From Vulgatibacter incomptus (GTDB lineage: Bacteria > Myxococcota > Myxococcia > Myxococcales > Vulgatibacteraceae): DNA of 64,000 nucleotides. This document shows positions 10,362 through 32,670 of the stretch, one piece after another; positions within the stretch are counted from its first letter, which is position 1, and the number at the start of each line of letters is the position of its first letter. Made by a program: the position numbers and the translations under genes. The stretch spans positions 676,001-740,000 of the forward strand of contig NZ_CP012332.1 in assembly GCF_001263175.1 (NCBI RefSeq). Reading direction: 5' to 3'. The notes beneath the pieces were generated by a model. That model was given only the letters and a program-made list of their open reading frames with translations. It made no database searches and had not been told where the DNA came from.

Positions 10362-10826
10362 CTACATCGGGAGGCCGGCCGACTCGCGCCTCTCCCGTTC
10401 CTCCGCCGCTGCCAGCGAGTCCTCTTCCTGCGTGATGTCGGCGGGGGTCGAGGGAACGCCGGGCTGCATCTGGTGCTCCTGCTCGGCGGCGAAATACTTC
10501 TTGGGATAGCGCGAGCGCATGAGCTTCCAGCTCTTGTTCCGCTTGACCTGGCGCCGGAAGCGGGTGGCCGCGCCGTCCACCGCCTTGTAGATGTCGTCCG
10601 CCTCCTCGATCACGGTGATCGTGCGGATGTGCGGCATGGTGAACGTGATCCGGCACCGCTTGTCGATGCCGCCCTTGTTCCCGTAGAGGTCGGCGAGCTC
10701 GATCTCCAGGATCGGGCCCTGGCGGTCGTAGAGGCGCCTCAGGGGCTCGACGATCTTGTATCGGCAGAACTCCGCCAGGTTGTCCGTGAATTCGAGTCCT
10801 CCGAGGGCCGTGACCTCGACGTCCAT
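10362..10826 (-). CDS. HPF/RaiA-like ribosome-associated protein with acidic C-terminus
   Basis: 154 residues from the ATG at 10826 (GGAGG nine bases upstream). The first 110 residues look like an S30EA/HPF fold: VEVTALGGLEFTDNLAEFCR, then a beta-rich EIELADLYGNKGG and a helix DDIYKAVDGAATRFRRQVKR with basic residues that would contact 16S rRNA. The last 40 residues are acidic and do not resemble the dimerisation domain of long HPF. It is the second HPF-like gene on this strand within 600 bases and converges with pncB. Ribosome hibernation is the likely setting but the similarity is moderate. Confidence 0.7.
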   Translation of the reverse strand: MDVEVTALGGLEFTDNLAEFCRYKIVEPLRRLYDRQGPILEIELADLYGNKGGIDKRCRITFTMPHIRTITVIEEADDIYKAVDGAATRFRRQVKRNKSWKLMRSRYPKKYFAAEQEHQMQPGVPSTPADITQEEDSLAAAEERERRESAGLPM

Positions 10827-10905
10827 GCAGGCTGCCTCCGTGTCGCGATGGGAGCTCCTCTCCTGGAAAGGTGTGTCCTCGCGCAATCGGCGGCAGAAGG
10901 CCCCG

Positions 10906-10940
10906 AAAACGGGCGCGCCCCGCCGGGGAAGGCGGGGCGC
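10906..10940 (-). terminator. Candidate rho-independent terminator of hpf
   Basis: A perfect 10-bp inverted repeat (GCGCCCCGCC / GGCGGGGCGC) spans 10915-10940 with a six-base loop. On the minus strand it is followed after five bases by TTTT. It lies about 70 bases downstream of the hpf stop. The U-tract is short, so termination may be partial and allow some read-through into the second HPF-like gene. Confidence 0.55.
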
Positions 10941-11012
10941 GGTCCGATTGGCAGCCCGCCCTACGCGCCCGCGGGAAGCCCGGGGGCGCGGAGCAGGCGG
11001 GCGCAGGCTGGG

Positions 11013-11399
11013 TCAGTGGACGTCGTCGAGCGGCTCGGCCTCGAGGGGCATGGCGACGGCGAGGTTCTTGATGCTCTCCCGGCGGTTGAAGTTCTCCCGC
11101 TTCTCGACGCCTCGGCGAAGCGCCTCGACCAGGCGATCGGCCGCGAGGTCGATCGCCTCGTACATGTTGGGTCGCACCTCGGTGACGTGGATCGGAGGAA
11201 TCCCGGGGGCCCGGAAATCGAGCGAGCAGGCTTTGTCCGCCCGACCGTGCCGGCTGCCGTACTCATCGGCGAGCACGATCTCCAGGCGGGCGGCGCTGTC
11301 GACCACCAGCTTTCCCGCGCGCTCCAGGACGTGCTGCCGACAACGCTCCTTGAGCGCGTCCGTCAGCTCGAGATGATGTCCATGTACGACGAACTGCAT
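11013..11399 (-). CDS. hpf: Ribosome hibernation-promoting factor (HPF/YfiA family)
   Basis: 128 residues with the clear S30EA/HPF fold: MQFVVHGHHLELTDALKERC, the beta strand LEIVLADEYGS, ACSLDFRAPGIPPIHVTEV and the helix NMYEAIDLAADRLVEALRR with the basic KRE continuation. Such proteins bind the decoding centre of idle 30S subunits and promote 70S inactivation or 100S dimers. The length is near the short form, without a full dimerisation domain. The ribosome-binding site AAGGAGG is ideal. A perfect 8-bp inverted repeat sits just upstream of it. Confidence 0.9.
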   Translation of the reverse strand: MQFVVHGHHLELTDALKERCRQHVLERAGKLVVDSAARLEIVLADEYGSRHGRADKACSLDFRAPGIPPIHVTEVRPNMYEAIDLAADRLVEALRRGVEKRENFNRRESIKNLAVAMPLEAEPLDDVH

Positions 11400-12202: not shown

Positions 12203-12442
12203 CACCGGTGCACGATCGGCTTGTCAATCCAAGCGACCACTGCGGCAGGTTCGATCGAAAGTCCGCGGGCCGAGCGCCCGGGTGCCGCCCGGCCGGGGGC
12301 CGATTGGCCGATGGGACGGATCCGGGGCCAGGACGTCCCGACCGAACAGGCCTGGTCTCAACCGGCCTACCTCCGCCGCAGGCTCCAAGCAATGAAACAC
12401 AAAGAGTGCGGGTGAGGTGCACGCCGACAATGTGGCATGGAC

Positions 12443-12495
12443 TCCTACTTTGGCCGTGGGAGTAGGATCCCGAGAGTGCTCCATTCAACACTCTC
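12443..12495 (+). promoter_or_regulatory. Two tandem hairpins in the leader of the DPA-repeat lipoprotein gene
   Basis: Two perfect 7-bp inverted repeats lie back to back: TCCTACT (12443-12449) with AGTAGGA (12461-12467), then GAGAGTG (12472-12478) with CACTCTC (12489-12495). The second ends three bases before the GGAGAAG ribosome-binding site of the gene starting at 12510. A translational or attenuation control element is plausible. In the remaining divergent gap (12203-12442) I see no clear promoter, gene or repeat. Confidence 0.5.
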
Positions 12496-12509
12496 CCGGA
12501 GAAGACAAC

Positions 12510-13961
12510 TTGAATTTGCTGCGATTGCGAGGGACGATCGATCGATTGGGTCCTCTCGCCTGGTATCGGAGAGCCCTGATCATTGCATTCTCGATCGCCG
12601 TCCTTGGACTTCACGGGTGCGGCGGCGTGGCCGATGATCGAGGCCGGCACCCGATGAACGAATCGGATCCGTCGGATCCGGCCGACCCCTCGGACCCCAC
12701 TGACCCTGCGGACCCGGCGGACCCTGCGGACCCGGCGGACCCGGCGGACCCGGCGGACCCGGCGGACCCGGCGGACCCGGCGGACCCTGCGGACCCTGCG
12801 GACCCGGCGGACCCTGCGGACCCGGCGGACCCGGAGGACCCTGCGGACCCCTCAGACCCGGCGGACCCGGCGGACCCGGCGGACCCGGCGGACCCTGCGG
12901 ACCCGGCGGACCCGGCGGACCCGGCGGACCCGGCGGACCCGGCGGACCCGGCGGACCCGGCGGACCCGGCGGACCCGGCGGACCCCGATAGTTCCCCGGG
13001 GAATGGCACTGGAGGAGCCGATGGTGGGACGACAGGCGGGACCGGCGGCACTGGTGGCGCCGGCAGCGGCTCTGATGGCTCCGGTGGAACGGGGGGATCC
13101 GGTGGAACGGGGGGCTCCGGTGGAACGGGGGGCTCCGGTGGAACGGGGGGATCCGGTGGGGCAGGCGGCGGGACCACTCCCGGCAACGACCTCGACACCT
13201 TCGGTATCACCAAGCTCTATCCCTCGAAGCCGGCGGGCGAATCGTGGGCGTTGAACGCCAACCCCACCACCGATCGGCGATTCGATCCCCAGTCCCCGAT
13301 CACGTCGAACTCCGACGGATCCTGGAAGATGCGCAACACGAAGGTCCGGATGAGCGTCTTCACGTCGACCGGTTACAACCCGAACGCGATCGCCACTTAC
13401 GACAGGGAGCAGCTCGCCCAGAAGGGCTTCATGCAGGCCGCCAACGACTGGAAGAACATCGAGATGACCGGGTTCGTGAAGGTCAACGCCGCCTCCGACA
13501 TCAAGGACAACTTCTCGTGGTACGCCCGCGGCGGGAAACATACCGACTCCAGGATGTGTGAAGGCTCCTCCTACAAGGGAGGGCTCCACTACGACGGCCG
13601 GGCCCGAATCGAGAAGGAATCGTGGCACGTCAGCTACGCTCAGACCCCCTATCTGAACGCCGTCTCCTCACTGCTCGGCCGCTGGGTCGGCTTCAAGACG
13701 GTGATGTGGAACATCACCGTGAACGGCAAGACCGCGGTCAAGCTGGAGCTCTGGGTCAACGACAACGCCGATCGCGTCACCTGGAGGAAGGTCTACGACA
13801 AGATCGACGACGGGACCTGGGGCGGCAGCTCCTCGACCTGCGGAGCGGCGAACACCAAGATGCCGATGACCTGGGGCGGGCCCATCGCCGTCTTTCGCTG
13901 GGACAGCGCAACCGACGTCGACTTCAAGTGGTTGAGCGTTCGCGAGATCCAGGCGCCGTGA
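12510..13961 (+). CDS. Secreted lipoprotein with Asp-Pro-Ala repeats and a beta-sandwich domain
   Basis: 483 residues from a TTG at 12510, chosen for the GGAGAAG at 12498; in-frame codons further upstream overlap the leader hairpins. A signal ends at a lipobox (LGLHGC). Then come about 36 DPx repeats, a Gly-Thr/Ser linker ([14 protein letters not shown]), and a C-terminal domain of about 240 residues with [39 protein letters not shown] and [20 protein letters not shown]. The domain looks like a concanavalin-type jelly roll. From memory similar segments occur in secreted thaumarchaeal proteins; no activity is known to me. A surface-displayed glycan-binding or glycan-degrading protein on a rigid stalk is the most reasonable reading. 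Confidence 0.75.
12664..12988 (+). repeat. 9-bp tandem repeat encoding Asp-Pro-Ala
   Basis: About 36 copies of a 9-bp unit of the type GACCCGGCG, in frame inside the lipoprotein gene, with occasional variants encoding DPS, DPT or DPE. Synonymous changes (GCG, GCC, CCT, CCC) interrupt perfect identity. The array is likely to vary in copy number between strains. The encoded polymer should be a stiff, negatively charged spacer. Confidence 0.95.
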
Positions 13962-13999: not shown

Positions 14000-14590
14000 C
14001 TACCTGACCTCGGAGCGGATCTTCGCGACCAGCAGGTCGATGGGCTGGTGCACTCCTTCGACCCGGCCGGCGATCGCGCCCTCCTTGTCGAGAAGGGTGA
14101 TTACGGAGGAGTGCCCGATCGCTCCGTCCTTCGCGACACGGTAGTGGATCCCGAGCACCTCGGCGAGCTCCCGAACCTTGGTTGCGTCCGTGTGGAGGAA
14201 GGTCCAGCGGGCCGGATCGAGGGCGTGTACATCTCGCAGCTTGCGCAGCACGTCCGGTGTGTCGCGCTCGGGATCCAGCGTGACGAGGACGACCCGCAGC
14301 TCCGCCCGAATCCTGGGTTCGAGCGCTTCTTCGATCCTCCTGATGTCCCCGATCAGCAGCGGACACGCATACTTGCACGTCGAGTAAAACATGCTGATCA
14401 GGACCGGCTTGCCCGCGAGCTGCGCGAGGATCGCCTGTTTTCCGTCTTGATCCGTGAAGCCTCCTCCCAGAAGGTAGAGCGAGTCGGCCCTCCGGTCGGG
14501 CCCGCGTGCAGGGGGCGGCGCGCGGCGGTCTTCGGCGCCTGCTGTCATGGGGAGGAGGGCCGCCAACGTCAGGAGCTCGAGCCACCTCAT
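14000..14590 (-). CDS. SCO1/SenC-family copper chaperone
   Basis: 196 residues with an N-terminal signal (MRWLELLTLAALLPMTAGA) and a thioredoxin-like fold. The copper-binding motif STCKYACPLL provides Cys72 and Cys76, and GHSSVITLLD provides His160; all three ligands are present. SCO proteins deliver copper to cytochrome oxidase CuA and, in Streptomyces, to the copper radical oxidase GlxA. No cytochrome oxidase gene is in the window. It lies 19 bases after an FGE-like gene on the same strand and about 8 kb from a galactose-oxidase-type copper enzyme. The ribosome-binding site GAGGAGA is strong. Confidence 0.9.
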   Translation of the reverse strand: MRWLELLTLAALLPMTAGAEDRRAPPPARGPDRRADSLYLLGGGFTDQDGKQAILAQLAGKPVLISMFYSTCKYACPLLIGDIRRIEEALEPRIRAELRVVLVTLDPERDTPDVLRKLRDVHALDPARWTFLHTDATKVRELAEVLGIHYRVAKDGAIGHSSVITLLDKEGAIAGRVEGVHQPIDLLVAKIRSEVR

Positions 14591-14609
14591 TTCAATTCTC
14601 CTCGAAGCG

Positions 14610-15494
14610 CTACCTGGCGCAGCGAAAGCCCAGGTTTCTCATGGTGAAGGCACCATCGAGAGAGCTGCGAAATGCATATCGCATGAACGCAGGGTAGTCA
14701 TTGGTGCCTCCTCCGGCGAAGACCTTCGCACCGCAGAAGCGCATCGCCTCCGCGTCTTCGCCGTCCTGGCGGTCGTCGGCGCCTACTATCGTGTTCCGGT
14801 AGTCGAGCACCCACTCCCACACGAGGCCGTGGAGGTCGTAGATCCCCCAGTAATTCGGCGCGCTCTTCGCGACCGCGGAAATCACCCGTCGGCCCCTTTG
14901 CGCATACAGTTCCTGGAGTTCTCGGACGAACTCGGGGTCTCGCCGTCCGTCTGCCCTGCAGGCGCTCGCCGAGGCGGCGTATTCCCATTCGCTCTCGGTG
15001 GGAAGGCGCTTCCCCTTCGACTCACAGTAGGCCTTCGCCGCGAACCAGCTCACCTGCGTCACCGGCGCGTCCGGCAGCGCATCGGATCCCAGATCGAGGG
15101 GACCGGACCAGTGCAGGAGATATCCGGGATTGGCGAAGAGTCCTGGTGTCAGGCCTCGCCGCCAGGTGGGGTTGTCCCGGACGAACCCGAGAAAGTCTGC
15201 GTTCGTTACAGGCGTCCGGTCGAGCTCGAATGCCTCGACCGAGATCTTCTTCTCCGAGGGTGAGGCCGGAAACGGTGGGACGAAGAGGCCTGCGCCCACG
15301 TGTGCCGATCCGGCGGTGGCTCCCATCCATGCCTTCGAGCGCGGACATCCCTTACCGGTCGTAGGTCCGGACTTGGCTGACGCCCCCCTCGATTGTGGCA
15401 GGGCATGGGTCGCAGACGGAGCGGCCGAGAACGCACCTCCGAGTAGAATCGCGCACGCGACCCACCTGGTTCTCCCGCAGATATTCACGGACAT
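14610..15494 (-). CDS. Secreted formylglycine-generating-enzyme-like (SUMF1) domain protein
   Basis: 294 residues from the ATG at 15494, preceded by GAAGGA; it carries an N-terminal signal (VACAILLGGAFSAAPSATHA). The SUMF1/FGE fold shows VEAFELDRTPVTNADFLGFV, APVTQVSWFAAKAYCESKGK, RLPTESEWEYAASA, YWGIYDLHGLVWEWVLDY and a closing NLGFRCAR. I do not see the paired active-site cysteines of true FGE in the expected place, so it may be a non-catalytic relative such as NirV, the partner of copper nitrite reductase. It is co-directional with the SCO gene 19 bases downstream, suggesting a role in a copper protein pathway. Confidence 0.82.
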   Translation of the reverse strand: MSVNICGRTRWVACAILLGGAFSAAPSATHALPQSRGASAKSGPTTGKGCPRSKAWMGATAGSAHVGAGLFVPPFPASPSEKKISVEAFELDRTPVTNADFLGFVRDNPTWRRGLTPGLFANPGYLLHWSGPLDLGSDALPDAPVTQVSWFAAKAYCESKGKRLPTESEWEYAASASACRADGRRDPEFVRELQELYAQRGRRVISAVAKSAPNYWGIYDLHGLVWEWVLDYRNTIVGADDRQDGEDAEAMRFCGAKVFAGGGTNDYPAFMRYAFRSSLDGAFTMRNLGFRCAR

Positions 15495-15925
15495 CCCATC
15501 CTTCGAACCGCTTGCCCGCCGGGACCGTCCCTGCCGGCCGTCGACCGGACGGCGCCAGCTCGGCAATGAGATGGGTATGCGCTTGCCGGGCGACCGAGCA
15601 TCCATGCCCTTCCGGTTCACCCCTCCAGACGATCTCGGAGGCGGGCGCCGCGGAGGCCGCTCGACCGAAATCCAAGCCCCGCTCGGTCGTCCCCGCGAGA
15701 AACGAGACTCGGTTGAACCGCGGATTTGCTGTGCCCACCATGCGCGCAGGTCGGGGCGGCGCTCTCTCATGCATGCCCTCGAGCCTCGTGGTCGTTCTGC
15801 AGAGAATCAGTGAGCAATACGGTCGGTGTGGTGGGGTCGGTGGGGTCGGGTCGGTGTACGCGGGGCTCACGCCTCGGCGTCGCACGCCCCGACGGGAAAC
15901 GAAGACGATTCTCTCGGGGGAGACG
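15495..15925. other. Divergent intergenic region between FGE-like and MBL/Rieske genes
   Basis: 431 bases without a convincing gene; frames that stay open here lack ribosome-binding sites and signal-like starts. It must hold the promoters of both flanking genes. The only clear structure is a 14-bp-period G-rich direct repeat at 15821-15856, listed separately. Confidence 0.6.
15821..15856 (+). repeat. Three GGTCGGTG direct repeats with 14-bp period
   Basis: GGTCGGTG occurs at 15821, 15835 and 15849, exactly 14 bp apart, about 70 bases before the start of the MBL/Rieske gene. Regular spacing near a start suggests an iteron-like operator, although the G-rich strand could also form unusual structure. 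Confidence 0.6.
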
Positions 15926-17662
15926 ATGAAGATCACGAGCCTCGGGCACGCTGGATTCATGATCGAGACGGAAGGTGCGCTCATCGTAGCCGACCCGTGG
16001 CTCTCTCCGGCCGGCGCGTTCGACTCAGCCTGGATGCAGTTTCCGCAGAATCATCACCTGGCGTCGCTGGTCCGGGAGAAACTCGGCCGGACCACGAAGG
16101 AACGCTTCCTCTACCTGAGCCACGAGCACAAGGATCACTTCGATCCAGAGTTCCTCTCGACCCTGGAGAAGAGGGACGTCACCGTGGTCGTCCCGCGCTT
16201 TCGCCGCGATCGAATGCGGCGGTACCTCGCCGAGGCCGGGTTCGATCGCCAGGTCGTCTGCCGGGACGGAGATTCTGTCCCGCTGGCGGGCGGGGGGAGC
16301 CTCAAGCTGTTCGTCGAGGACTCCGATCTCAATCGCGACTCGAGCCTCCTGGTCCGTGCAGACGGGCAGACCTTCCTCAATCTCAACGACTGCAAGATCC
16401 ACGATCGGCTCGCCAGCCTCTCTGCGACCGAGGGGCCGATCGACGTCTTCACGGCTCAATTCTCGGGTGCGATCTGGCACCCCACCTGCTACGACTACGA
16501 CAAGCCGACATACAAGCGCATCTCCACCAAGAAGATGTTCAGCAAGTTCGAGGCGGTGGCTCGAGCCATCCAGGTGCTGGCTCCGCGTTGCTATCTCGCG
16601 TCCGCCGGCCCCCCGTGTTTCCTGGATCCGGCGCTCATCCACCTGAACTTCGAAGAGGTCAACATCTTCCCGCGGGCGCCGGCCTTCTTTCAATTCCTTC
16701 AGCGGAGGCTCAAGGATTCGCCTACCCGTCTCCTGGATACCCTGCCGGGTGATGTCTTCGATCTGGACGCGGTGGGGACGCCCGCGTCTTCGGAGCCGTT
16801 CACCGATGAAGGGTTTCGGGAGTATGTCCAGAGCTACGCCGAACGGATGAAGGACCTCTTCGCCTGGAGGTCTCGGAACCTCTCGGCGGATTCGTTGCAG
16901 GGGGTTCTCGATCGCCTCCAGGCCGAGCTGGAGCGCAAGCTGGCCCACCTCTCGCTCCACGATCGGGTCGCGACGCCGCTCTACGTCCAACTCTCCGATC
17001 TGCCGGGGCAGATCCTGCTCGTCGACTTTCCCGCGCGTCGGATCCGCCGGGTCACGGAGGTTCCGGCGACGGACCGCTATTCGCTCGAGGTCGGAGCTGC
17101 GAACATTCTCGCCGTTCTCGAAGGTCGCCTGACCTGGGAGGATTTCATGCTCTCCCTCCGGATGCGGCTCAGCCGCGTGCCGGATCTCTACGATCCGCTG
17201 ATCCACGGCTTCCTGGTCGTCGAGGCCGAGGACCTCGAAGCCTTCTGCGAGACCATCCGCAAGAACGAGGCTCGCACGGAGAGGATCGAGATCCCCGTTG
17301 GGGATCGCACCTACAGCATCAATCGATTCTGCCCACACCAGGGTGCGGATTTCAGTCAGGCGGGGGCGTGCTGGGTGGAGGGCAAGCACCTCGTCTGCGG
17401 CCGCCATCGGTGGCAGTTCGATCTCGAGGCTGGGGGACGCTGCAATACCAACACCTCGTCGATCCGCGCGGAGCTCGTGCGCGACGTCACGGCGTCGAAC
17501 GCAGCGGAAGCGAACGCGTTCGCGGCATCGAACGCAGCCGCTGCGGCGGCGAGCGAGGTCTCGGCCACGAACGAGGCCGTGTCGTCGAACGGGAGCGACG
17601 CCTCCGGAGCGGATAGCGACGACCGGGAGCGCGGCGACGAGGCAGCCCCCACCGCGAGCTGA
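15926..17662 (+). CDS. MBL-fold / Rieske hydroxylase, NamH-like
   Basis: 578 residues; the ATG at 15926 follows GGGGGAG. The N-terminal metallo-beta-lactamase domain shows GHAGFMIETEGALIVADPWL and the metal motif SHEHKDHFD (His66, His68, Asp70, His71). The C-terminal Rieske [2Fe-2S] domain has CPHQGADF (Cys469, His471) and CGRHRWQFD (Cys491, His494). This order and the opening sequence resemble NamH, which hydroxylates UDP-MurNAc to the N-glycolyl form in actinobacteria, and more distantly CMP-Neu5Ac hydroxylase. I infer oxygen-dependent hydroxylation of an N-acetyl sugar nucleotide. The last 60 residues are Ala/Ser/Asn-rich and disordered. It converges with the GT2 export operon. Confidence 0.78.
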   Translation: MKITSLGHAGFMIETEGALIVADPWLSPAGAFDSAWMQFPQNHHLASLVREKLGRTTKERFLYLSHEHKDHFDPEFLSTLEKRDVTVVVPRFRRDRMRRYLAEAGFDRQVVCRDGDSVPLAGGGSLKLFVEDSDLNRDSSLLVRADGQTFLNLNDCKIHDRLASLSATEGPIDVFTAQFSGAIWHPTCYDYDKPTYKRISTKKMFSKFEAVARAIQVLAPRCYLASAGPPCFLDPALIHLNFEEVNIFPRAPAFFQFLQRRLKDSPTRLLDTLPGDVFDLDAVGTPASSEPFTDEGFREYVQSYAERMKDLFAWRSRNLSADSLQGVLDRLQAELERKLAHLSLHDRVATPLYVQLSDLPGQILLVDFPARRIRRVTEVPATDRYSLEVGAANILAVLEGRLTWEDFMLSLRMRLSRVPDLYDPLIHGFLVVEAEDLEAFCETIRKNEARTERIEIPVGDRTYSINRFCPHQGADFSQAGACWVEGKHLVCGRHRWQFDLEAGGRCNTNTSSIRAELVRDVTASNAAEANAFAASNAAAAAASEVSATNEAVSSNGSDASGADSDDRERGDEAAPTAS

Positions 17663-17713
17663 TGGTGATGGTCCCTGTTCGGCGGCGCCGCTGCGGACGA
17701 ACACGCTGCGGCC

Positions 17714-18424
17714 CTATCTCGGCGAGGTCCGAGGGCCTCCGGCGGAAGGGGCCTCCTCGGGCGGCGCGAACATCTCGAGCTCGAGGCGGACATTGTCCGT
17801 TCGAACGCCCACCGGGCCGCGGAGGGCGAGGACCTCTGGCCCCAAGCGTCCTTCCCAAACGAGGACGTCATCGACCCAGACGAGGAGGGTAGAAGCGTCG
17901 AGTCGCGCCTCCAGTCGATGCGAGCTTCCCACCTCGAGTCCGGGCACGGGCCGCGAGCGCGCGGGGCGGAGGTTCCGGTAGCCTCGATTGCCGCATTGGA
18001 CGGAGGCATGCTGTCCCGGGTTCGACTTGACCGAGACGACAATCCCTGGCTTGGGCGCGATCCTCCACATGACGTAGAGCAGGTTGCACCCGTCCTCCGC
18101 CTTGAGCTTCAGGCCGAGCTGTCTGCGTTGCTCACCCGACGCGAGCGGCATTTGCTGGCTCGTGGGCCCTCGATAGGTGAACCGGATCGACGCGTGGGCG
18201 GCGGTGAGGTCCTTCGCGATGGCCCGCATCTTGGGGACGTCGACCCGCATGGGCCCAGCGCCACCGGGAGAGCCACCGGGGGAGAGGATCCCTTCCGTGA
18301 CTCGAAGGTGCGCCATGTCCAGCCGCTTCAACCCCTCGGCGCCAGGCTTGGGATCGGGAGCGTCCGCGCGCGCGCTCGGCCCCAGCGCGCAGATAACGGC
18401 CCACAGGCCGCATGCGAGCCTCAT
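17714..18424 (-). CDS. Secreted protein of the glycan-export operon, unknown function
   Basis: 236 residues with a signal peptide (MRLACGLWAVICALGPSARA). The body is beta-rich, with MPLASGEQRRQLGLKLKAED, LLYVMWRIAPKPGIVVSV, RLEARLDASTLLVWVDDVLV and GPVGVRTDNVRLELEMF, which together look like a LamG/concanavalin-type carbohydrate-binding sandwich. The tail is Pro/Gly-rich. It overlaps the TolC-like gene by four bases (ATGA) and is the last gene of the GT2-HlyD-TolC operon. A periplasmic or surface glycan-binding role is inferred from fold and position. Confidence 0.68.
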   Translation of the reverse strand: MRLACGLWAVICALGPSARADAPDPKPGAEGLKRLDMAHLRVTEGILSPGGSPGGAGPMRVDVPKMRAIAKDLTAAHASIRFTYRGPTSQQMPLASGEQRRQLGLKLKAEDGCNLLYVMWRIAPKPGIVVSVKSNPGQHASVQCGNRGYRNLRPARSRPVPGLEVGSSHRLEARLDASTLLVWVDDVLVWEGRLGPEVLALRGPVGVRTDNVRLELEMFAPPEEAPSAGGPRTSPR

Positions 18425-19527
18425 TCCCGAGGCCCGAGGAAGGCATCGAGGGCCTCGAGGTGGCTGCTCAGGAAAGCGCTGGTGGCTCGTGCGTTGGTCC
18501 GTTCGAACCAGAGGTAGTCGCGGTAGCGTCGTATGGCGGAGCTCTCCATCACTTCCACCGCACGCGCTTGCTGATCGAGGTCTGCCAGGAGCGTCAGGGT
18601 CTGGGCGTGCCGGAATCGCTCGTCCCTCCGAACCGCCTGCAGCGTCGCCACGAGTTCAGAGATCCGCTCGTCCGCTCCCATCACGTCCTCTCCGAGCCAT
18701 CGGCTGCGTCCCTCACGAGCCTGGCGGTTGCCCTCCCCTTGCCAGATGGATCCGAGATTGAAGGACACGGAGAGGAGGGCGAAGACGGGAATCTTCTGCT
18801 CCACCGTGAAGATCTTGTCCCAACCGGCCCGGACGGTGAGTCCCCAGGCCTCTGCCCTTCGAAGCGATCCGGAGATCCGCTCGACCTCGTCGTCGGCTTC
18901 CCGGTACGCCTCGAGAATCGCGGGGAGCGAATCGCCTCGGGTCTTGGGGAGCCTGGAGACCCGAAGGATATCGACCTGGGTCTCGCTCAACGACGAGAGC
19001 AGCGAGTCGACCCGGGACCGGACCGCATTGAGCTCCTCGATCGTGGACCGCCCGGAGGCGACCTCCTCGGCCACTTTCGCGAGGATCGCCTCGGCCTGCG
19101 GGACCGCCTGGGCGAGCACCTCCTCCCTCGCGCGCAGCGCGGCGGCCGACCCGAGGTCTGCACCTGCTCGCAAAAGCGCCTGGAGATCGGAGAGCGCGAG
19201 GTACCTTCGACACTCCGCCTCCGCCTTCCTTCGGAGGGCCATCCCCTGGTAGAGGTGCACGCCGTCGTACTCGGCCCCGAGCGTGATCCGGAGGACCGGC
19301 TCGCCGACCGGGATCCCCTGCGTGACAGTGCCGGAGTTGATCGCTCCAACGGAGCCGATGAGCGCGGGCGCAACCAGGATGGCCGACTCGGCCTTTGCGA
19401 CCCCGCGAACGAACTCGCAATACCCCTCGGACGAAGCAACGCCGTCAGAGGCGTGGGGGTCGGAGGGTCCCGCGCCCGCCGCGACGAGGGGAATGGCGAC
19501 GAACAGACCGAGGATTCCAGCGCGCAT
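18421..19527 (-). CDS. TolC-like outer-membrane efflux protein
   Basis: 368 residues from the ATG at 19527, preceded by a G-rich ribosome-binding site; it carries a signal (MRAGILGLFVAIPLVAAGAG). The sequence is dominated by long amphipathic helices (ARAREEVLAQAVPQAEAILA-type heptads, EVASGRSTIEELNAVRSRVD) with strand segments such as PVFALLSVSFNLGSIWQGEG, where TolC proteins have transmembrane strands. It is somewhat shorter than typical TolC proteins. Its neighbours are an HlyD-like adaptor (13 bases upstream) and, with ATGA overlap, a secreted protein. Export of the polymer made by the upstream GT2 is the likely job. Confidence 0.75.
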   Translation of the reverse strand: MRAGILGLFVAIPLVAAGAGPSDPHASDGVASSEGYCEFVRGVAKAESAILVAPALIGSVGAINSGTVTQGIPVGEPVLRITLGAEYDGVHLYQGMALRRKAEAECRRYLALSDLQALLRAGADLGSAAALRAREEVLAQAVPQAEAILAKVAEEVASGRSTIEELNAVRSRVDSLLSSLSETQVDILRVSRLPKTRGDSLPAILEAYREADDEVERISGSLRRAEAWGLTVRAGWDKIFTVEQKIPVFALLSVSFNLGSIWQGEGNRQAREGRSRWLGEDVMGADERISELVATLQAVRRDERFRHAQTLTLLADLDQQARAVEVMESSAIRRYRDYLWFERTNARATSAFLSSHLEALDAFLGPRE

Positions 19528-19540
19528 CGCGGGCCCCCTT

Positions 19541-20692
19541 TTACAAGAACAGGGGACGACCCTTGGCGTGAAGGAGCTGCTCTTTCGCCCAATGGGGGTC
19601 ATCGAGAGTCAGCTCGACCATCACACCGCGCAGGGTGTCGGCACGGACAGGATGTTTCATCGTGACTTCACCATCGAGGATCGCAGTCACATGCCCCACC
19701 TTCCGGCACCAGAAGAGCTTGAACCTGCACCCGTAGACCGCGGCCCCGGCGCTGACGCTGTCGAGGTTCTCGTAGGGCACGAACGCGACGTTCAGGTTGC
19801 CCTCGATCGCCTTGAGGTAGGGCGAGGTCCGAATCGCTTCGAGGAGTCGGTCATACCTGGTGACCGATCGGGCGAGCGCCTCGAGGCGCCCGATCGTCAC
19901 CGCGCGGACCCCCTCTGCGCGAGCGAGCTCGAGGGCCGAGCGGGTTGCTTCCCGCTCGAGCTGGAGCATCCCGACGCTCCCGGGGCCGACGGAGGCTGTC
20001 TTCTTCCAGACCACGGTCTCAGCGGAGCCTCGATGGCCAAGAACGTTCGAGTCCGATCGCTCGCCGATGGACCTCATGGCCTGGGTCTCACGCGAGAGGA
20101 GTTCGATCCGCCGGTTGATACCGATGTTCCGCTCCTGGAACTCGAGGCTGCTCATCGACATCTGGGCCAGCTGCTGGTTCATCCGCAGATAGGTCTCCCG
20201 ATCGACCAGCTTCGCGCTCGAGAGCTGCTCGGCTTGTACCCTTTCGATCCCGGAGAACGCCTGGTTGGAGAGGGCAAACTCCCGGCTCGCCGCGTCGTAA
20301 TGGCTGCGAAGCGCGGCGAGCTTGCGCATCTCGTCGGTCCAGGCGGCTCGATCGTTCTCGACCGCGATCCTGAGCTTCTCCTGGAAAGACGCCTCTACGA
20401 TGATGATTCGATCCGCATCTGCCAGGAGTGACTCGAGTTCGCTCGCCTCCGCGACGAGCTTGTCGCGCGCCGCGGACTGCTGCGCCACCTGGGCGTTGAG
20501 GGTCAGGATCCGCTCGTCGCTTGGCGATACGATGGTGGGCGCGAGCCAGCTCGAGTTCACCAGAAAGAAAGCCTGCACGCCGAGGTACGAGAGCAGCCCA
20601 CCGAGGATGACGGCCAGGATGACGAACCCAGACAACTTGTATGCGTTGACCACGAGGGAGTTGAGAGAATTGGTTATCCGATGCCCGTTCAT
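19541..20692 (-). CDS. HlyD-like membrane-fusion (adaptor) protein
   Basis: 383 residues. A single transmembrane helix near residues 22-45 (GFVILAVILGGLLSYLGVQA) is followed by a long coiled coil (about 60-220), where LVAEASELESLLADADRIII and QLAQMSMSSLEFQERNIGIN carry the heptads. A C-terminal beta-barrel segment carries CRFKLFWC, a possible disulfide pair. This is the architecture of periplasmic adaptor subunits, but without a PilZ domain as in Alg44. The start overlaps the GT2 stop by four bases (ATGA) and has a GGAGGAG site. It should bridge the inner-membrane synthase and the TolC-like protein. Confidence 0.75.
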   Translation of the reverse strand: MNGHRITNSLNSLVVNAYKLSGFVILAVILGGLLSYLGVQAFFLVNSSWLAPTIVSPSDERILTLNAQVAQQSAARDKLVAEASELESLLADADRIIIVEASFQEKLRIAVENDRAAWTDEMRKLAALRSHYDAASREFALSNQAFSGIERVQAEQLSSAKLVDRETYLRMNQQLAQMSMSSLEFQERNIGINRRIELLSRETQAMRSIGERSDSNVLGHRGSAETVVWKKTASVGPGSVGMLQLEREATRSALELARAEGVRAVTIGRLEALARSVTRYDRLLEAIRTSPYLKAIEGNLNVAFVPYENLDSVSAGAAVYGCRFKLFWCRKVGHVTAILDGEVTMKHPVRADTLRGVMVELTLDDPHWAKEQLLHAKGRPLFL

Positions 20693-21936
20693 GTCTCCTC
20701 CGGCTCTGCGATGGCTCCGGCTTCTGGTGTCGAAACCCGATCGCCCCCGCTCGCCCCGGCGGCGCTTCCGCGCGTCTCCCAGCTCCCCGAATCAAGGGTG
20801 AAGAGTGCGAGCGGAGTGAACAAAATGTATGTGACGGGCAGCACCAGGACGATCGGCAGGAAGGAGACGGCCGAGACACGCTGCTCCGGCGGTATCCCCC
20901 TCATCTTGAACGCATAGACGAGGCCCAACACCGCGGCGAACGAGAGGTGGGCCGTCATCATCTCCCAGAGGTTGCCATTCAGCAGCATGTTGAAGACTGC
21001 GACGGGATAGGCGACCGCCAGCGCGAAGAGGGAGAGGAGGTGGAAGGCGATGACGGGATGGAGCCTCCACACATGCGACAAGGCGGAGATCATGTCCACG
21101 AGGTTCGAGCGCCTCCAGCGAAGCTGTTGCGAGAAGTAGGCTTGGAGCTTCGCGGGAGCGGCCGTGTGACAGATAGCCAGAGGCGTGAAGACCGTCTTGT
21201 AACCGGCCTTGACGATCTGGCGGGTCAGGAAGCGATCCTCGCCGTAGAGGATCGGCACGCCGAGGACCCTGCGCGCCTCGAGGATCGACTCGAGCTCGAG
21301 CAGCACCGCACGCCGATACGCCGTCAGGCAGCCAGAGAGACACATCACCGAGCGGAACGAGCGCTCGAGATCCTTGAGCCACTCCTGCGAGAAATAGAAC
21401 TTCACCTCGATCATCCGGGTCAGCCAGCTCGCCTGGCAACCCCTTACGAAGGTGCGCCCTCCGACTGCGGCGATGTCGGGGTCGACGAAGCGCGCGACGA
21501 GGTGGCGCAGCGCCTTGCGATCCACGGTGACGTCGGAGTCCACGGAGACGACAATCTCCGCCGAGGTCTGCCGGACGGCCCGGATGAGCCCCCTGCGCTT
21601 GCCGACGTTCTTCGTATTTCGAAGGACCGTCACGTTCCGACGTCCTTCCGCCGCCTTGCAAGCCCACGCGAAGCTGTCGTCGCTGGAGCAATCGTCCACG
21701 ACCACGACCTCCAGTTTTTGTGGCGGGTAGTCCTGCTCCAAGAGGCTCAGGATCGTCCTGTAGATCCCCTCTCCTTCGTTGAAGAGCGGGATCACGAACG
21801 CGACGGTCGGCTCCAGGAGCTCGTCGGTCCGATCGAAGCGCCCTCGGAGGGACAGCTTGAAGAACCACCCCAGCACGTAGCGGTTCATGATCACGACCAG
21901 GATCAGAAGCTGAATGGGAAAAAGCTCCACCGCCAC
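20689..21936 (-). CDS. Processive family-2 glycosyltransferase (HAS/CslA type)
   Basis: 415 residues, GTG start with AGGGG upstream. One N-terminal membrane helix precedes a GT2 domain with VVVVDDCSSDD (Asp81/82), SVDSDVTVD (Asp133, Asp135), GEDRFLTRQ (Asp234) and the processivity motif QQLRWRRSN (Gln270 to Trp274). Three or four C-terminal helices would form the translocation channel. This matches the D,D,D,QxxRW signature of hyaluronan, chitin and cellulose-like synthases. No PilZ domain is attached, so direct c-di-GMP control is not visible. It heads the operon and is divergent from the copper radical oxidase gene. The sugar used cannot be told. Confidence 0.9.
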   Translation of the reverse strand: MAVELFPIQLLILVVIMNRYVLGWFFKLSLRGRFDRTDELLEPTVAFVIPLFNEGEGIYRTILSLLEQDYPPQKLEVVVVDDCSSDDSFAWACKAAEGRRNVTVLRNTKNVGKRRGLIRAVRQTSAEIVVSVDSDVTVDRKALRHLVARFVDPDIAAVGGRTFVRGCQASWLTRMIEVKFYFSQEWLKDLERSFRSVMCLSGCLTAYRRAVLLELESILEARRVLGVPILYGEDRFLTRQIVKAGYKTVFTPLAICHTAAPAKLQAYFSQQLRWRRSNLVDMISALSHVWRLHPVIAFHLLSLFALAVAYPVAVFNMLLNGNLWEMMTAHLSFAAVLGLVYAFKMRGIPPEQRVSAVSFLPIVLVLPVTYILFTPLALFTLDSGSWETRGSAAGASGGDRVSTPEAGAIAEPEET

Positions 21937-22235
21937 CTACCCCTGCACCCGCCGCCGCGCTCATCCGAAAACCGTTTCAGAGGTCGGGCCCGTGCGCCTG
22001 GCCGCGCCGTGCGAGACCGCTCGCCAGCCAGCCGGAAACTAGTCATGGGGCGGTGGCAGCAGGTCGTCCGGAAGGAGCGACCTGAGGGGTTCCCTGCCGG
22101 ACGAGACCCATCGGGCCCCGACTACACTGGCCGGGGGACGTTGCCGGCGCTTCGTCGGCTGCCCTAGGTTCGGCTCGCCGACGTGCGATGGCTGGGAGCG
22201 ATGGACGTCGGTCCATTGCCGAGGAGGGAGGGCCG
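21937..22235. promoter_or_regulatory. Divergent control region between GT2 operon and copper radical oxidase
   Basis: 299 bases containing the promoters of both sides. A perfect 7-bp inverted repeat, CAGGTCG (22060-22066) and CGACCTG (22078-22084), lies near the middle, with GTCCGG and CCGGAC arms overlapping and flanking it. No clear -35/-10 pair was found. A shared operator controlling synthase and oxidase together is an attractive but unproven reading. Confidence 0.45.
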
Positions 22236-24572
22236 ATGGCCGGGCGGAGGATGCGTTGGGGCGAGTTGGCGCCTCGCGTTGCTTGTCTGCTGTCGATCGC
22301 GGGGCTGGTGACGGCACTGGGATGCAGCGGCTCCAGGACCGGTGCCGTGGACGATCCGTCTGGCAACCTGGACTCTGGGGTCGAAGACCCGGCAGTGGTC
22401 GGCGAATGGTCACCGCTGCAGCTCTGGCCCATCGGGCCGACCCACACGAGCGTCGTGCCTTCGGGCGACGTCATGTTCTTCGGGGAGTTCTCCTTCGGAG
22501 ACAACCATTACATGTGGAATCCGGACACGGGGCGGTTCACCGAGCTGCAGTACGCCGGATACAACATCTTCTGTGCGGGCCATTCGTTCCTGGCGGACGG
22601 CAGGCTCCTCGTCACGGGTGGTCACGTCGCATCGCACGTGGGGTTCAAGAACACGATTATCTTCGATCCGGAGTCGCAGACCTGGACCCGGACTCCGGAG
22701 ATGAACGATCCGCGCTGGTATCCCACCAACACCACGTTGTCCAACGGCGACGTGCTCGTGATCTCGGGCGAGACGACGGCGGCCGGAGTCATGGCGGAGA
22801 CGCCGCAGGTCTATGAAGTCGCGACCGACAGTTGGCGCGATCTCACAGGAGCCAGGGTCAAGCTCCCCTATTATCCACGCCAGTTCCTGGCCCCGAACGG
22901 GATGGTGTTCATCGCGGGCCCACAGCCCTGGAGCTATTACCTCGACACGGGCGGCACCGGATCGATGACGAGGGTCGCGCAGCCCAACGTGTCGGGAAGG
23001 ACCTACGGTCCGGCTGTGATGTACGACGTGGGCAAGATCCTGATGGTTGGCGGAAATCAGCCTCCCACCGCGGCCGCCGAGGTGATCGATCTGAACGTTT
23101 CCAGCCCGAGATGGAGGGCAGTGGCCTCGATGGGCACGCCCCGGCGCCAGCACAATGCGACGGTCCTGCCTGATGGGACGGTCCTCGTCACCGGAGGCAG
23201 CTACGGCAACTCCTTCGACGACAAGACCTCACCGGTCTTCACGACCGAACTCTGGAATCCGGTCACCGAGCGGTGGACCACCTTGGCGAACGTGGGGATC
23301 TACCGTGGGTACCACTCGACGGCCGTCCTGCTGCGAGACGGCCGGGTCCTGGTCGGCGGGAGCCGAAACGACAACACGGCCCAGATCTACTCGCCACCCT
23401 ACCTCTTCAAGGGGCCGCGTCCGACGATCGCCTCGGTCGAGACGGACGTGGAGGCCAACTCGCAGCTCTCGATCCAGACCCCGGACGCTGCGAGCATCCG
23501 GCGGGTGGCGTTGATCCGCCTGGGATCGGTGACCCACGCTTTCGATCAGAACGCCCGCTACGTGCCGCTTTCCTTCGCCGCCAACCCGGGCGGGATCGTC
23601 GCGGACGTGCCGAACTACAACGTCACGCCTCCCGGCCACTACATGCTCTTCCTGGTGAACGACCAGGGCGTGCCTTCGGTGGCGACGACGGTGAGGGTCG
23701 GTCCACCGGCCCTCGCGCCGCAGAGGATCAGGTTGCTGACCCCGGAATCGGGCGAGAGCCTCACGCCAGGAGCGGCCTACCGGGTCACTTGGACAGCCCC
23801 TTCGACGACACCAAGGGTGAACCTCGATTATTCGACCGATGTCGGAGCGACCTGGACGAAGCTGATCCACTCCATCGTCAACCGTGGGTACTACGACTGG
23901 ACCGTTCCGAGCACGCCCGCCTCCGCCATGCTGCTGAGGCTCTCTGACTCCGCCAATCCGGCTCTGTTCGGGGTCAGTCCGGGGCCGTTCGCCATCGGTG
24001 GGCCGGTGGCCCGGATGTTCTTCACGGCGCCCACCGTCGGTACGACGATCCCCGGGGGCACCGATTTCTCATTCGCGTGGACGTCGCCCCCTGGAGTCCC
24101 GAGGGTGAACTACGACTATTCCATCGACCATGGCGCGATCTGGAGGAAGATTTCGTACAACAACGTGAACCGGAGCACCTACACCTGGAGGGTTCCGGAC
24201 ATGAACGTCGACGGCGTGCTGATGCGGGTGAGCTCGACGAACGAACCGTCGATTTTCGGGGAGAGCCCGGCGTTCAGGGTCACGGGCGGACCCTTCGCAG
24301 TCGGAACGCCCGCCGCAGGTGTGACGCTGACCGCGGGATCGTCGTACGACATCACCTGGACTGCCCCCGGCTCGATCCCTCGGGTCGACCTGAAGTACTC
24401 CGCCGACGCGGGAGGGATCTGGAAGACGATCTCGGGGAAGATCGTCAACTCGGGACGGTTCACCTGGACGGTCTTCAACCTCGACTCGGCCACGGTTCAG
24501 GTGAAGGTGGTCGACTCGGCCGACGAGACGCAATTCGCTGTATCGGGGATGTTCACAGTCCGGAGGCCCTGA
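22236..24572 (+). CDS. Galactose/glyoxal oxidase-type copper radical oxidase, lipoprotein
   Basis: 778 residues from the ATG at 22236, with GGAGG upstream and a lipobox ending at Cys30 (VTALGC). A Kelch-type seven-bladed propeller carries the galactose-oxidase active site: Cys113 in FCAGHSFLADG and Tyr162 in PRWYPTNTTL (the thioether-linked pair), Tyr359-His360 in GYHSTAVLLRDGRV, and His434 in SVTHAFDQNARYVPL. A DUF1929-type beta sandwich follows, then three repeats of about 93 residues (RVTWTAPSTTPRVNLDYSTD, FAWTSPPGVPRVNYDYSIDH, ITWTAPGSIPRVDLKYSADA) resembling glycan-binding modules. Such enzymes oxidise alcohols or aldehydes and make peroxide. FbfB of Stigmatella is a myxobacterial relative. 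It is divergent from a glycan synthase operon, so the polymer may be its substrate. Confidence 0.92.
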   Translation: MAGRRMRWGELAPRVACLLSIAGLVTALGCSGSRTGAVDDPSGNLDSGVEDPAVVGEWSPLQLWPIGPTHTSVVPSGDVMFFGEFSFGDNHYMWNPDTGRFTELQYAGYNIFCAGHSFLADGRLLVTGGHVASHVGFKNTIIFDPESQTWTRTPEMNDPRWYPTNTTLSNGDVLVISGETTAAGVMAETPQVYEVATDSWRDLTGARVKLPYYPRQFLAPNGMVFIAGPQPWSYYLDTGGTGSMTRVAQPNVSGRTYGPAVMYDVGKILMVGGNQPPTAAAEVIDLNVSSPRWRAVASMGTPRRQHNATVLPDGTVLVTGGSYGNSFDDKTSPVFTTELWNPVTERWTTLANVGIYRGYHSTAVLLRDGRVLVGGSRNDNTAQIYSPPYLFKGPRPTIASVETDVEANSQLSIQTPDAASIRRVALIRLGSVTHAFDQNARYVPLSFAANPGGIVADVPNYNVTPPGHYMLFLVNDQGVPSVATTVRVGPPALAPQRIRLLTPESGESLTPGAAYRVTWTAPSTTPRVNLDYSTDVGATWTKLIHSIVNRGYYDWTVPSTPASAMLLRLSDSANPALFGVSPGPFAIGGPVARMFFTAPTVGTTIPGGTDFSFAWTSPPGVPRVNYDYSIDHGAIWRKISYNNVNRSTYTWRVPDMNVDGVLMRVSSTNEPSIFGESPAFRVTGGPFAVGTPAAGVTLTAGSSYDITWTAPGSIPRVDLKYSADAGGIWKTISGKIVNSGRFTWTVFNLDSATVQVKVVDSADETQFAVSGMFTVRRP

Positions 24573-30576: not shown

Positions 30577-32670
30577 CTACTCGGCCTTGGTCAGACCGAA
30601 GCGGAGCGTGGCCGCGCCCTTGCCGCCGCGAGGAAGCGCGGCCTCGTGGATGAGCAGCGAGAGCTTCCGGGTGCGGGGCGCGAAGACCCACGCGTAGGTC
30701 GAGGGATCGTAGGCGGCGGTCACCTGCGGATCGTCGCCGAGCTCCTTGGGGACCTCCACCTCCACGAAGAAGAGCTCCACCAGGCGACGGGAGGCGTCGG
30801 CGTCGACGTTGTCGTAGAGGGCCGAGAGCTGCGCGCCGGGCCGGATCTCCGCCATGTAGTCGCTGGCGACCGCAGTGGGGAGCCGCTCCGCCGGGATCTG
30901 CACCGTGATCTGGTGGTTCGCCACGGTCGCGCGGACGGGGGCCTTCCGCGGCTGGGAGGCCTGCACCGGGAGCTTCGCCGTCGGATCGCCCCAGAGGTCG
31001 AAGGAGAGCGCGGCGCGCAGGGTCTTGCGCCAGTCGGCGTGGCCGCGGCGCTTCTTCAGCTCGACCGTCGCCAGCAGGTAGTTCCGGGCGCTCGCGAGGG
31101 CCTCGCCTGCTGTCTCGCCCCCGTGGAGCTGGGCGTTCAGGTACGCGCGGGCGAAGCCAGAGCCGCTCGCCGAGTAGACCGCCATGTAGGTGCCGATCAC
31201 CGCGTTGGCACCGCGCTCCACCAGGAGGTAGGGGTCGGAGCGGTCCAGGGTGTAGCAGCCCTGGAGAAAGTAGGTCGCAGGCGGCAGCGGCGACTCGGGG
31301 GCGGGGAGGGCGTCGTCGTCGAGGGTGAGGTCGCGGGGATGGCCCTCCCAGAGCACCAGGCCGTGGCCCGGTAGCTCCTTCCGGATCAGCTCGGGGGTGA
31401 TCTCCTCCCGATAGTAGGACTCGACCTTGACCCCCGAGTTGGCGAGCTCGGAGGAGGTGGTGCGGCTGATCGCCTCGCCGAGGACGAACTTGCGGTCGGC
31501 GTTGGCCAGGATCAGGGCGCCGTTTCCGTCGGTCTTGTCGCTGACGCCGTGGAGGATGCGCGCGATCCACCGGGAGAGGTCGAAGACGTCGAGGGCCGCG
31601 AGCCTGCCGACGGCCCGATCGGCGGCGAGGCCCTGCCGGGTCACGAAGGACGGGATCTTGTGGACGCGGGGGCTGTCGGCGCCCTTGGCCACCTGGTCGA
31701 TGTCCTCCATTTGGCCCATCGGGACCGCGATGTGGTCGCCGACGATCGTGACCGCGTCGAAGGGCCCCTTGCCGGTGGCCTCGAGGGCGGTGGCGGCCTG
31801 CTCGGGCGAGCGACCGCCCCCGGGGCCGGCGCCGACGTACGCCAGGGCGGCGCCCTTGCCCAGCACGTAGGGGAGCGCGCCCACCGAGAGCCTGGGCGGC
31901 GAGAAGGGGCCCTCGGCGTCGGAGGGTGCGGCGACCACGAGGTGCCGCGCCGAGGCGACCCGATCGTTGTAGGCCTTCAGGGCGTCGTCGCCGGAGAGGA
32001 CCCGGACCCTGCCGCCGGAGGCGGAGGCGAGACGGGTCTCGTCGCCGGTGCCGACGAAGACGACCTCCTTTGCGCCGAGGTGGCGGGCGAGCTCTCCGGC
32101 CTCGCGGACCGTGGCAGGGAGATCGCCGCTCGCGATCAGGAGGGGAGCCGAATCGGCGGCGGCGAGGGCGGCGGCGGCGAGGGCGGCCGAGAAGTCGGTG
32201 CCGTCGGCCACGTAGACGGCGGGGGCCTTGGAGGCGGGGCCGAAGGCCGCCTTGGCCAGCGCGGCGCCGAGCTCCTCGTCGGGGGCCTCGATGCGCTGGA
32301 CCTTGCCGGGGATCTTGAGCGAGGCGGAGGAGCTCCCGGGCGGGCCGATCCAGACCACCTTCTTGGGCTTGAGGCGTTGGAGGAGCTCCTCGGTCCAGCG
32401 TTCCTCGCCGCCGGTCCAGAGCAGGACGGGCGGCAGGGTGGCCGCAGCGCCGGAGCCCTTCGACGCGGGCTTCGCCGAAGCCGCGTAGGCGGGGAGCGTC
32501 CGCTTCCACGACGAGCCGTAAATCAGCACGACGTCGGCGTCGAGGGCCGCTGCGGCGGGCGAAGCGATCAGGAGGCCTGCGGCGAGGGCGGCCATCGACA
32601 GGGCCCGCCGCGCCGCGGCTCGCGCGGCTTCGCTCGATCCAGGGCGCGCGGTTCGGAGGACGGGATTCAT
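30577..32670 (-). CDS. Secreted clan-CD (gingipain/caspase-like) peptidase-related protein
   Basis: 697 residues with a signal (ALSMAALAAGLLIASPAAAA, about 23-42). The long central region has alternating strand-helix sequence. A likely catalytic dyad sits at His444 in VLWEGHPRDL and Cys472 in FLQGCYTLD, followed by GANAVIGTYMAVYSASGSGF and a helix EALASARNYLL. That order (His, about 28 residues, Cys after a hydrophobic strand) is typical of clan CD, for example C25 gingipains. The C-terminal 130 residues form a beta-sandwich-like end. It overlaps the upstream transglutaminase-like gene by four bases. A cell-surface protease or a dead relative are both possible. Confidence 0.68.
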   Translation of the reverse strand: MNPVLRTARPGSSEAARAAARRALSMAALAAGLLIASPAAAALDADVVLIYGSSWKRTLPAYAASAKPASKGSGAAATLPPVLLWTGGEERWTEELLQRLKPKKVVWIGPPGSSSASLKIPGKVQRIEAPDEELGAALAKAAFGPASKAPAVYVADGTDFSAALAAAALAAADSAPLLIASGDLPATVREAGELARHLGAKEVVFVGTGDETRLASASGGRVRVLSGDDALKAYNDRVASARHLVVAAPSDAEGPFSPPRLSVGALPYVLGKGAALAYVGAGPGGGRSPEQAATALEATGKGPFDAVTIVGDHIAVPMGQMEDIDQVAKGADSPRVHKIPSFVTRQGLAADRAVGRLAALDVFDLSRWIARILHGVSDKTDGNGALILANADRKFVLGEAISRTTSSELANSGVKVESYYREEITPELIRKELPGHGLVLWEGHPRDLTLDDDALPAPESPLPPATYFLQGCYTLDRSDPYLLVERGANAVIGTYMAVYSASGSGFARAYLNAQLHGGETAGEALASARNYLLATVELKKRRGHADWRKTLRAALSFDLWGDPTAKLPVQASQPRKAPVRATVANHQITVQIPAERLPTAVASDYMAEIRPGAQLSALYDNVDADASRRLVELFFVEVEVPKELGDDPQVTAAYDPSTYAWVFAPRTRKLSLLIHEAALPRGGKGAATLRFGLTKAE

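Follow-up and report, generated by a model that had tools for sequence, protein, structure and literature searches.

The window studied here, a 64,000-nucleotide stretch between positions 676001 and 740000 of the single-contig genome of Vulgatibacter incomptus (4,350,553 bases), carries a locus built around a processive family 2 glycosyltransferase (GT2) and a divergently transcribed copper radical oxidase. With a probability of about 60%, we read it as the version, in Vulgatibacter, of the fbfA locus, a synthase-dependent exopolysaccharide system of the myxobacteria that would make an N-acetylhexosamine polymer and to which neither the nearby SCO copper chaperone gene nor the FGE-sulfatase-domain (FGE) gene beside it belongs. 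The evidence consists of gene content, synteny, co-occurrence, active-site residues and the class of the synthase. Genomes of the same order served for comparison, 145 in the GT2 search and 142 in the later profile searches. The genes named in the initial annotation, coding for the SCO protein, a protein with metallo-beta-lactamase (MBL) and Rieske domains, the GT2 and the divergent oxidase, all exist as open reading frames with Pfam matches. That inventory had missed three genes, however: those of a secreted jelly-roll protein (12417-13961), the FGE protein (14610-15770) and a fourth operon member (17714-18424). The members of the locus are as follows.

12417 to 13961, plus strand: secreted protein with a low-complexity linker and a jelly-roll domain (13182 to 13958), block member by conservation and AlphaFold2 (AF2) model.
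15926 to 17662, plus strand: NamH-type protein with MBL fold and Rieske domain, core member and candidate for a sugar-nucleotide N-acetyl hydroxylase, from domains and metal ligands.
17714 to 18424, minus strand: putative LamG-like secreted protein, fourth gene of the operon, with 37-50% identity and the same position in relatives.
18421 to 19602, minus strand: putative TolC-like outer-membrane protein, conserved third gene of the operon.
19541 to 20692, minus strand: HlyD-like periplasmic adaptor, from its predicted (AF2) architecture.
20689 to 21936, minus strand: processive GT2 synthase, NodC/hyaluronan-synthase class and FbfA type, from Pfam and NCBIfam profiles and motifs.
21937 to 22235, no strand: divergent promoter region of about 300 bp between GT2 and oxidase, from the gene starts.
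22188 to 24572 (start at 22188 or 22236), plus strand: copper radical oxidase, AA5-like and of FbfB type, with C-terminal Ig-like repeats, accessory member, from profile and alignment.

The GT2 was found in 60 of the 145 genomes, at 54-66% identity. The genes of the GT2, the adaptor, the outer-membrane-type protein and the LamG-like protein overlap or abut and form one operon; the MBL-Rieske gene is convergent to it, and the jelly-roll gene lies beyond the MBL-Rieske gene. Relatives belonging to more than one family keep this block with the same content, order and orientation. The conserved core is composed of the GT2, the HlyD-like adaptor, the TolC-like, LamG-like and MBL-Rieske proteins and the secreted jelly-roll protein. 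Because the block is kept in about 60 genomes, the arrangement goes beyond chance; the SCO gene, which the initial annotation had counted among the neighbours, is missing from the block in the relatives' loci examined. A GT2-based search of genome contigs for named relatives returned four metagenome-assembled loci only.

Profile searches indicate what kind of polymer may be made. The GT2 matches PF13641 (E 9.5e-31) and Chitin_synth_2 (1.6e-23) and contains the DxD, GED and QQLRW motifs. It scored 186.7 bits with the NodC profile and 110 with PgaC, against 33.7 with cellulose synthase (CelA). When solved structures were ranked with the family profile, hyaluronan synthases came first, and the best matches on plasmid records were mostly rhizobial NodC proteins (about 31% identity over 90% of the protein). 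No match to a PilZ domain was found in the 415 amino acids of the protein, and GED stands in place of the TED of CslA. For CslA, TED and PilZ elements are reported, with cellulose as the product of its complex with GlxA (PMC11022532). The GT2 thereby belongs to the NodC/hyaluronan-synthase class and not to the cellulose-synthase class of CslA, and its earlier description as a counterpart of CslA has to be abandoned: the profile scores and motifs rule out the identity of a CslA-type cellulose synthase.

The next two products of the operon had been proposed to form an envelope conduit (18421-20692). Neither gave a match to Pfam, NCBIfam or PDB profiles, and hhalign of both against the OEP and HlyD_D23 proteins of the same genome also found none. 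The AF2 model of the adaptor (pLDDT 78, pTM 0.49) shows an N-terminal transmembrane helix, a long alpha-hairpin and a C-terminal beta domain, as expected for a HlyD-like architecture; most of its structural matches are generic coiled coils, and one type I secretion system adaptor (5nen, Z 11.1) is among the matches. Within the conduit, the HlyD-like architecture is that of the AF2 model, and the TolC-like half is putative. A profile of the adaptor found it in 61 of the 142 genomes, and it occurs in the same genomes as the GT2. The LamG-like protein (17714-18424) had no Pfam match. The jelly-roll domain, which adjoins the MBL-Rieske gene in Myxococcaceae loci, is 62-69% identical there. Its AF2 model is a beta-sandwich of low confidence (pLDDT 55), and the best structural matches (Z about 10-11) are a GH43 C-terminal domain, PL7 alginate lyases, L-type and legume lectins and CBM66. 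The domain may therefore be of the concanavalin/PL7/lectin type, which denotes a fold class and not a function. An alginate/PL7 lyase was rejected, as the matches were spread evenly over PL7, lectins, CBM66 and GH43 with a model of this confidence. The linker that precedes the conserved domain contains DPADPADP and a glycine-rich GGTGGSGG repeat.

A related gene combination was found on a plasmid of Paraburkholderia sp. PGU19 (L148:5774-11185), where genes for an adaptor and an outer-membrane-type protein stand in a row with those for a TviB-like UDP-GlcNAc dehydrogenase (393 bits, short of the equivalog cut-off of 592) and a related GT2. The combination of adaptor, outer-membrane protein and GT2 therefore also exists outside the myxobacteria, and the dehydrogenase fits an amino-sugar polymer. 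In another locus (L065:10776-17886) and similar Myxococcaceae loci, cysD, cysN and cysC-like sulfate-activation genes, read from the sequence, lie near the GT2 operon, together with genes for a phosphopantetheinyl transferase, a thioesterase and a second MBL protein. The sulfate-activation genes are possibly a hint of sulfation, or they are unrelated.

The oxidase gene on the other side of the shared promoter region codes for a protein with a GO-like E-set domain (E 4.1e-21), and its residues 68-504 align with galactose oxidases of known structure (E about 1e-57). As had been claimed for it, all active-site residues were found: the Cys and Tyr of the cross-link and the remaining copper ligands correspond to C129, Y178, Y375, H376 and H450, which are invariant among five aligned myxobacterial oxidases. 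The secreted enzyme is probably active. With a start at 22236 an LGC lipobox is read from the sequence, and because of this motif the oxidase is a probable lipoprotein. With the GlxA equivalog NF052501 it reached 219.4 bits, below the cut-off of 800. Forty of the 142 genomes encode a copper radical oxidase of this type, often in multiple copies. Searching the order for a GT2 beside galactose-oxidase-like genes, the check that the initial annotation had proposed, revealed a pair in 18 genomes, the window's included (about 142 searched); the two genes were always divergent, with 309-458 bp between the matched parts. One locus of another genome (L057:6014-13776) carries a second GT2 copy about 6 kb from the first, and only one of the two stands beside an oxidase. 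A tree built from 34 oxidases places that of the window on a long branch outside the linked and most of the unlinked Myxococcaceae copies (the Myxococcaceae group has support of 97/91, the exclusion of the window copy 86/84). The linked oxidases occur in three groups and not in one, and the deep forks are weak; the linkage may have arisen once, early on, and been lost or moved afterwards, but the tree does not establish this. The oxidase is accessory to the conserved core.

One of the 18 genomes (G092) we take to be that of Stigmatella aurantiaca DW4/3-1. Its GT2-oxidase pair is located at 4.83 Mb and its GT2 is 62% identical to that of the window; from the gene number, STAUR_4011 would presumably lie close to this pair, at about 4.9 Mb. 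In S. aurantiaca, STAUR_4011 is fbfB, which adjoins a divergently transcribed glycosyltransferase gene (PMC3543389). By the title of a 1996 paper cited in PMC11821767, fbfA is a chitin-synthase homologue needed for fruiting, and the titles of Silakowski et al. 1996 and 1998 report that fbfA and fbfB of Stigmatella both affect fruiting. The glycosyltransferase beside fbfB would then be fbfA. The suggested link of the locus to the myxobacterial FbfB is thus supported: the synthase-oxidase pair is the known fbfA-fbfB arrangement, and it is not new, because a divergent fbfB-glycosyltransferase pair has already been published for Stigmatella.

The overlooked part of the locus is the MBL-Rieske protein, which shows a near one-to-one tie with an uncharacterised synthase locus across the order. 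Its gene likely starts at 15926. The protein retains the HxHxDH motif and the Rieske ligands CxH and CxxH, and is 53-59% identical across about 60 genomes. Its profile matched in 61 of the 142 genomes: 58 of the 60 genomes with GT2 contain both genes, and three others have the MBL-Rieske gene without GT2 (Fisher p about 2e-33, without phylogenetic correction). NamH, the muramic acid hydroxylase of mycobacteria, has an N-terminal UlaG and a C-terminal Rieske domain (PMC10050696). The same domain order with preserved metal ligands sustains the previous proposal of a hydroxylase candidate at this place. Matches on plasmid records came from Rhodococcus, Nocardia and Tsukamurella (29-32% identity over 88% of the length). 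The Rhodococcus homologue aligns end to end (32% over 509 residues) and its gene adjoins murB, coding for UDP-N-acetylmuramate dehydrogenase. By architecture, ligands and the Rhodococcus context the protein resembles the NamH type, the comparison with NamH itself being by description only. Because the gene is tied to the GT2 and not to cell-wall genes, UDP-GlcNAc or UDP-GalNAc is suggested as substrate.

Taken together, we propose that the NodC/hyaluronan-synthase-class GT2 would polymerise a chain containing N-acetylhexosamine at the inner membrane, and that the HlyD-like and TolC-like proteins would export it. Once outside, the chain may be bound or acted on by the LamG-like and jelly-roll proteins. 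The cytosolic MBL-Rieske protein probably turns part of the UDP-N-acetyl sugar pool into the N-glycolyl form, and in some lineages, Vulgatibacter included, the secreted FbfB-type oxidase would oxidise a primary alcohol of this polymer or of some other glycan. The polymer chemistry, the substrates of hydroxylase and oxidase and the export route are what we infer here from the genes. Of the exported, oxidised polysaccharide first put forward for this locus, the processive synthase, the export-type neighbours and the probably active oxidase are retained; the SCO gene and the counterpart of CslA are not. The full formulation, in which myxobacteria make an N-glycolylated amino-sugar exopolysaccharide with a NodC-class synthase, a NamH-like hydroxylase and HlyD/TolC-like export, carrying aldehydes through the oxidase in some lineages, is a tentative one that we hold at well under even odds.

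Several points weigh against the proposed system. No member of the locus has a known chemistry, and the HlyD/TolC identity fails every profile test tried. Some 42 of the 60 genomes with GT2 are without a linked oxidase and many oxidases of the order are unlinked to GT2, so that the substrate of the oxidase need not be the GT2 polymer. The oxidase might instead make peroxide or oxidise foreign or prey glycans, being merely co-regulated with the GT2 from the shared promoter region. The many unlinked paralogues and the failure of linked and unlinked copies to form two separate clades agree with this explanation; the divergent linkage at near-constant spacing in 18 genomes and the effect of both Stigmatella genes on fruiting, as reported in the titles, are opposed to it, and it appears doubtful, at about one chance in three or slightly less. 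The co-occurrence of GT2 and MBL-Rieske protein is inflated by shared ancestry, and two genomes with GT2 and adaptor (G003 and G014) are devoid of the MBL-Rieske gene. The protein could also modify muramic acid in peptidoglycan. As a peptidoglycan UDP-MurNAc hydroxylase it would be a chance neighbour and the polymer a plain poly-GlcNAc or hyaluronan-like chain, an explanation that draws on the function of NamH and on the place of the Rhodococcus homologue beside murB. We find it unlikely, with odds of some three to one against it, since in about 60 genomes the gene goes with the GT2 operon and not with genes of the cell wall.

Two other genes lie between the jelly-roll and MBL-Rieske genes of the window.

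14000 to 14590, minus strand: SCO/SenC copper chaperone, outside the polysaccharide block (PF02630, 6.9e-18; CxxxC).
14610 to 15770 (true start possibly 15494), minus strand: FGE-sulfatase-domain (NirV-like) gene, directly upstream of the SCO gene and outside the block (PF03781, 3.3e-37).

They take up 1964 bp, where nine relatives have 110-269 bp. The third-position GC is about 0.80-0.85 across 12.4-25.9 kb versus about 0.92 in most neighbours, and in the FGE gene it is lower still. The SCO gene was absent from every GT2 locus of the relatives that was examined. The FGE gene occurs in 16 of the 142 genomes, most of the matches listed being closely trailed by a SCO gene. Furthermore, the closest SCO homologues sit behind FGE and nirK, and nirK was directly upstream of the FGE-SCO pair in all six loci of relatives that were fetched; the one of these six nirK tested against TIGR02376 passed (353.5 bits, cut-off 296.3). 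No nirK orthologue was found in the window genome, where the best match was 32% over 137 amino acids. A gene of unknown activity, nirV, is common in nirK operons (PMC10356946), and we equate with it the FGE-type gene that stands behind nirK. We read the FGE-SCO pair of the window as a stray or orphan remnant of a nirK-type cassette. The position behind nirK in relatives suggests the SCO protein as a maturation partner of NirK.

Because it is absent from the relatives' loci and paired with FGE behind nirK, the SCO gene is placed outside the system; synteny rules it out as a member, and the initial annotation's use of it as the third leg falls. Several cuproenzymes can be served by SCO proteins, so this one may still load copper into the oxidase, a role that linkage does not support. 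The Streptomyces sco gene maps to another part of the chromosome, where ecuc and dtpA share its operon (PMC4736821). A full CslA-GlxA-Sco counterpart, with a cellulose-like glucan from the GT2 and oxidase copper from the local SCO, is very improbable: the GT2 does adjoin an oxidase with an intact site and a SCO gene within 10 kb, the CslA-GlxA complex makes cellulose in vitro (PMC11022532) and Sco is implicated in GlxA maturation (PMC4736821), but the SCO gene has the other associations just described, the GT2 is not of the cellulose class, the oxidase falls far short of the GlxA cut-off and is lipoprotein-like instead of a membrane-anchored partner, and most GT2 loci lack it.

Two observations concern other parts of the window. 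A large protein (30577-32859, minus strand) has a weak peptidase C25/CHAT match, and 10362-11399 (minus strand) holds a tandem pair of paralogues resembling ribosome hibernation-promoting factors.

FbfA and FbfB were tied to fruiting bodies in the 1990s with no product known. The comparison now separates the companions of FbfA (the adaptor, outer-membrane-type, LamG-like, NamH-like and jelly-roll genes) from SCO, which does not accompany it, so that the product can be sought directly. The locus is apparently present throughout a genus (g21) that we take to be Myxococcus: among the matches listed, adaptor and MBL-Rieske protein were found in 16 of its 16 genomes and the GT2 in 15. Judged from these genomes, a divergent synthase-dependent system was likely overlooked by a 2020 study of M. 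xanthus, which searched with known components and found no synthase-dependent pathway (PMC7484181). If the proposal of an N-glycolylated exopolysaccharide is true, such a pathway exists in Myxococcus, and an N-glycolyl sugar would possibly occur outside the cell wall of the mycolata.

The FGE-SCO pair differs from the NirK-NirV-SCO cassette in the absence of nirK from the genome, and equals it in pairing, order and strand. With the cyanobacterial XcsA-XcsB-TolC cellulose system the locus shares a GT2 and would share a HlyD-like adaptor and a TolC-like exit, a route that in cyanobacteria too is proposed but not proven; the Xcs synthase, however, is of the cellulose class with a PilZ or PCR domain, and the system includes neither hydroxylase nor oxidase (PMC12430437). 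As in the CslA-GlxA(-CslZ, Sco) system of Streptomyces, a GT2 neighbours a copper radical oxidase. In contrast to that system, the synthase is of another class, without PilZ, no glucanase is adjacent, and the SCO gene belongs to another cassette, while in Streptomyces sco is simply unlinked. Like NamH of Mycobacterium, the MBL-Rieske protein combines an N-terminal UlaG/MBL part with a C-terminal Rieske part, HxHxDH and 2Fe-2S ligands, and it aligns over its full length with mycolata homologues at about 30%; unlike NamH, to which it is likened by description, it sits by a GT2 export operon and not by cell-wall genes. The closest likeness is to fbfA-fbfB. The insertion of FGE-SCO between jelly-roll and MBL-Rieske genes and the branching of the oxidase outside the Myxococcaceae copies are particular to the window, whereas the divergent pair of a chitin-synthase-like GT2 and a galactose-oxidase-like gene is the same, and the genome taken to be that of Stigmatella has an identical succession of adaptor, outer-membrane-type, LamG-like, MBL-Rieske and jelly-roll genes after it.

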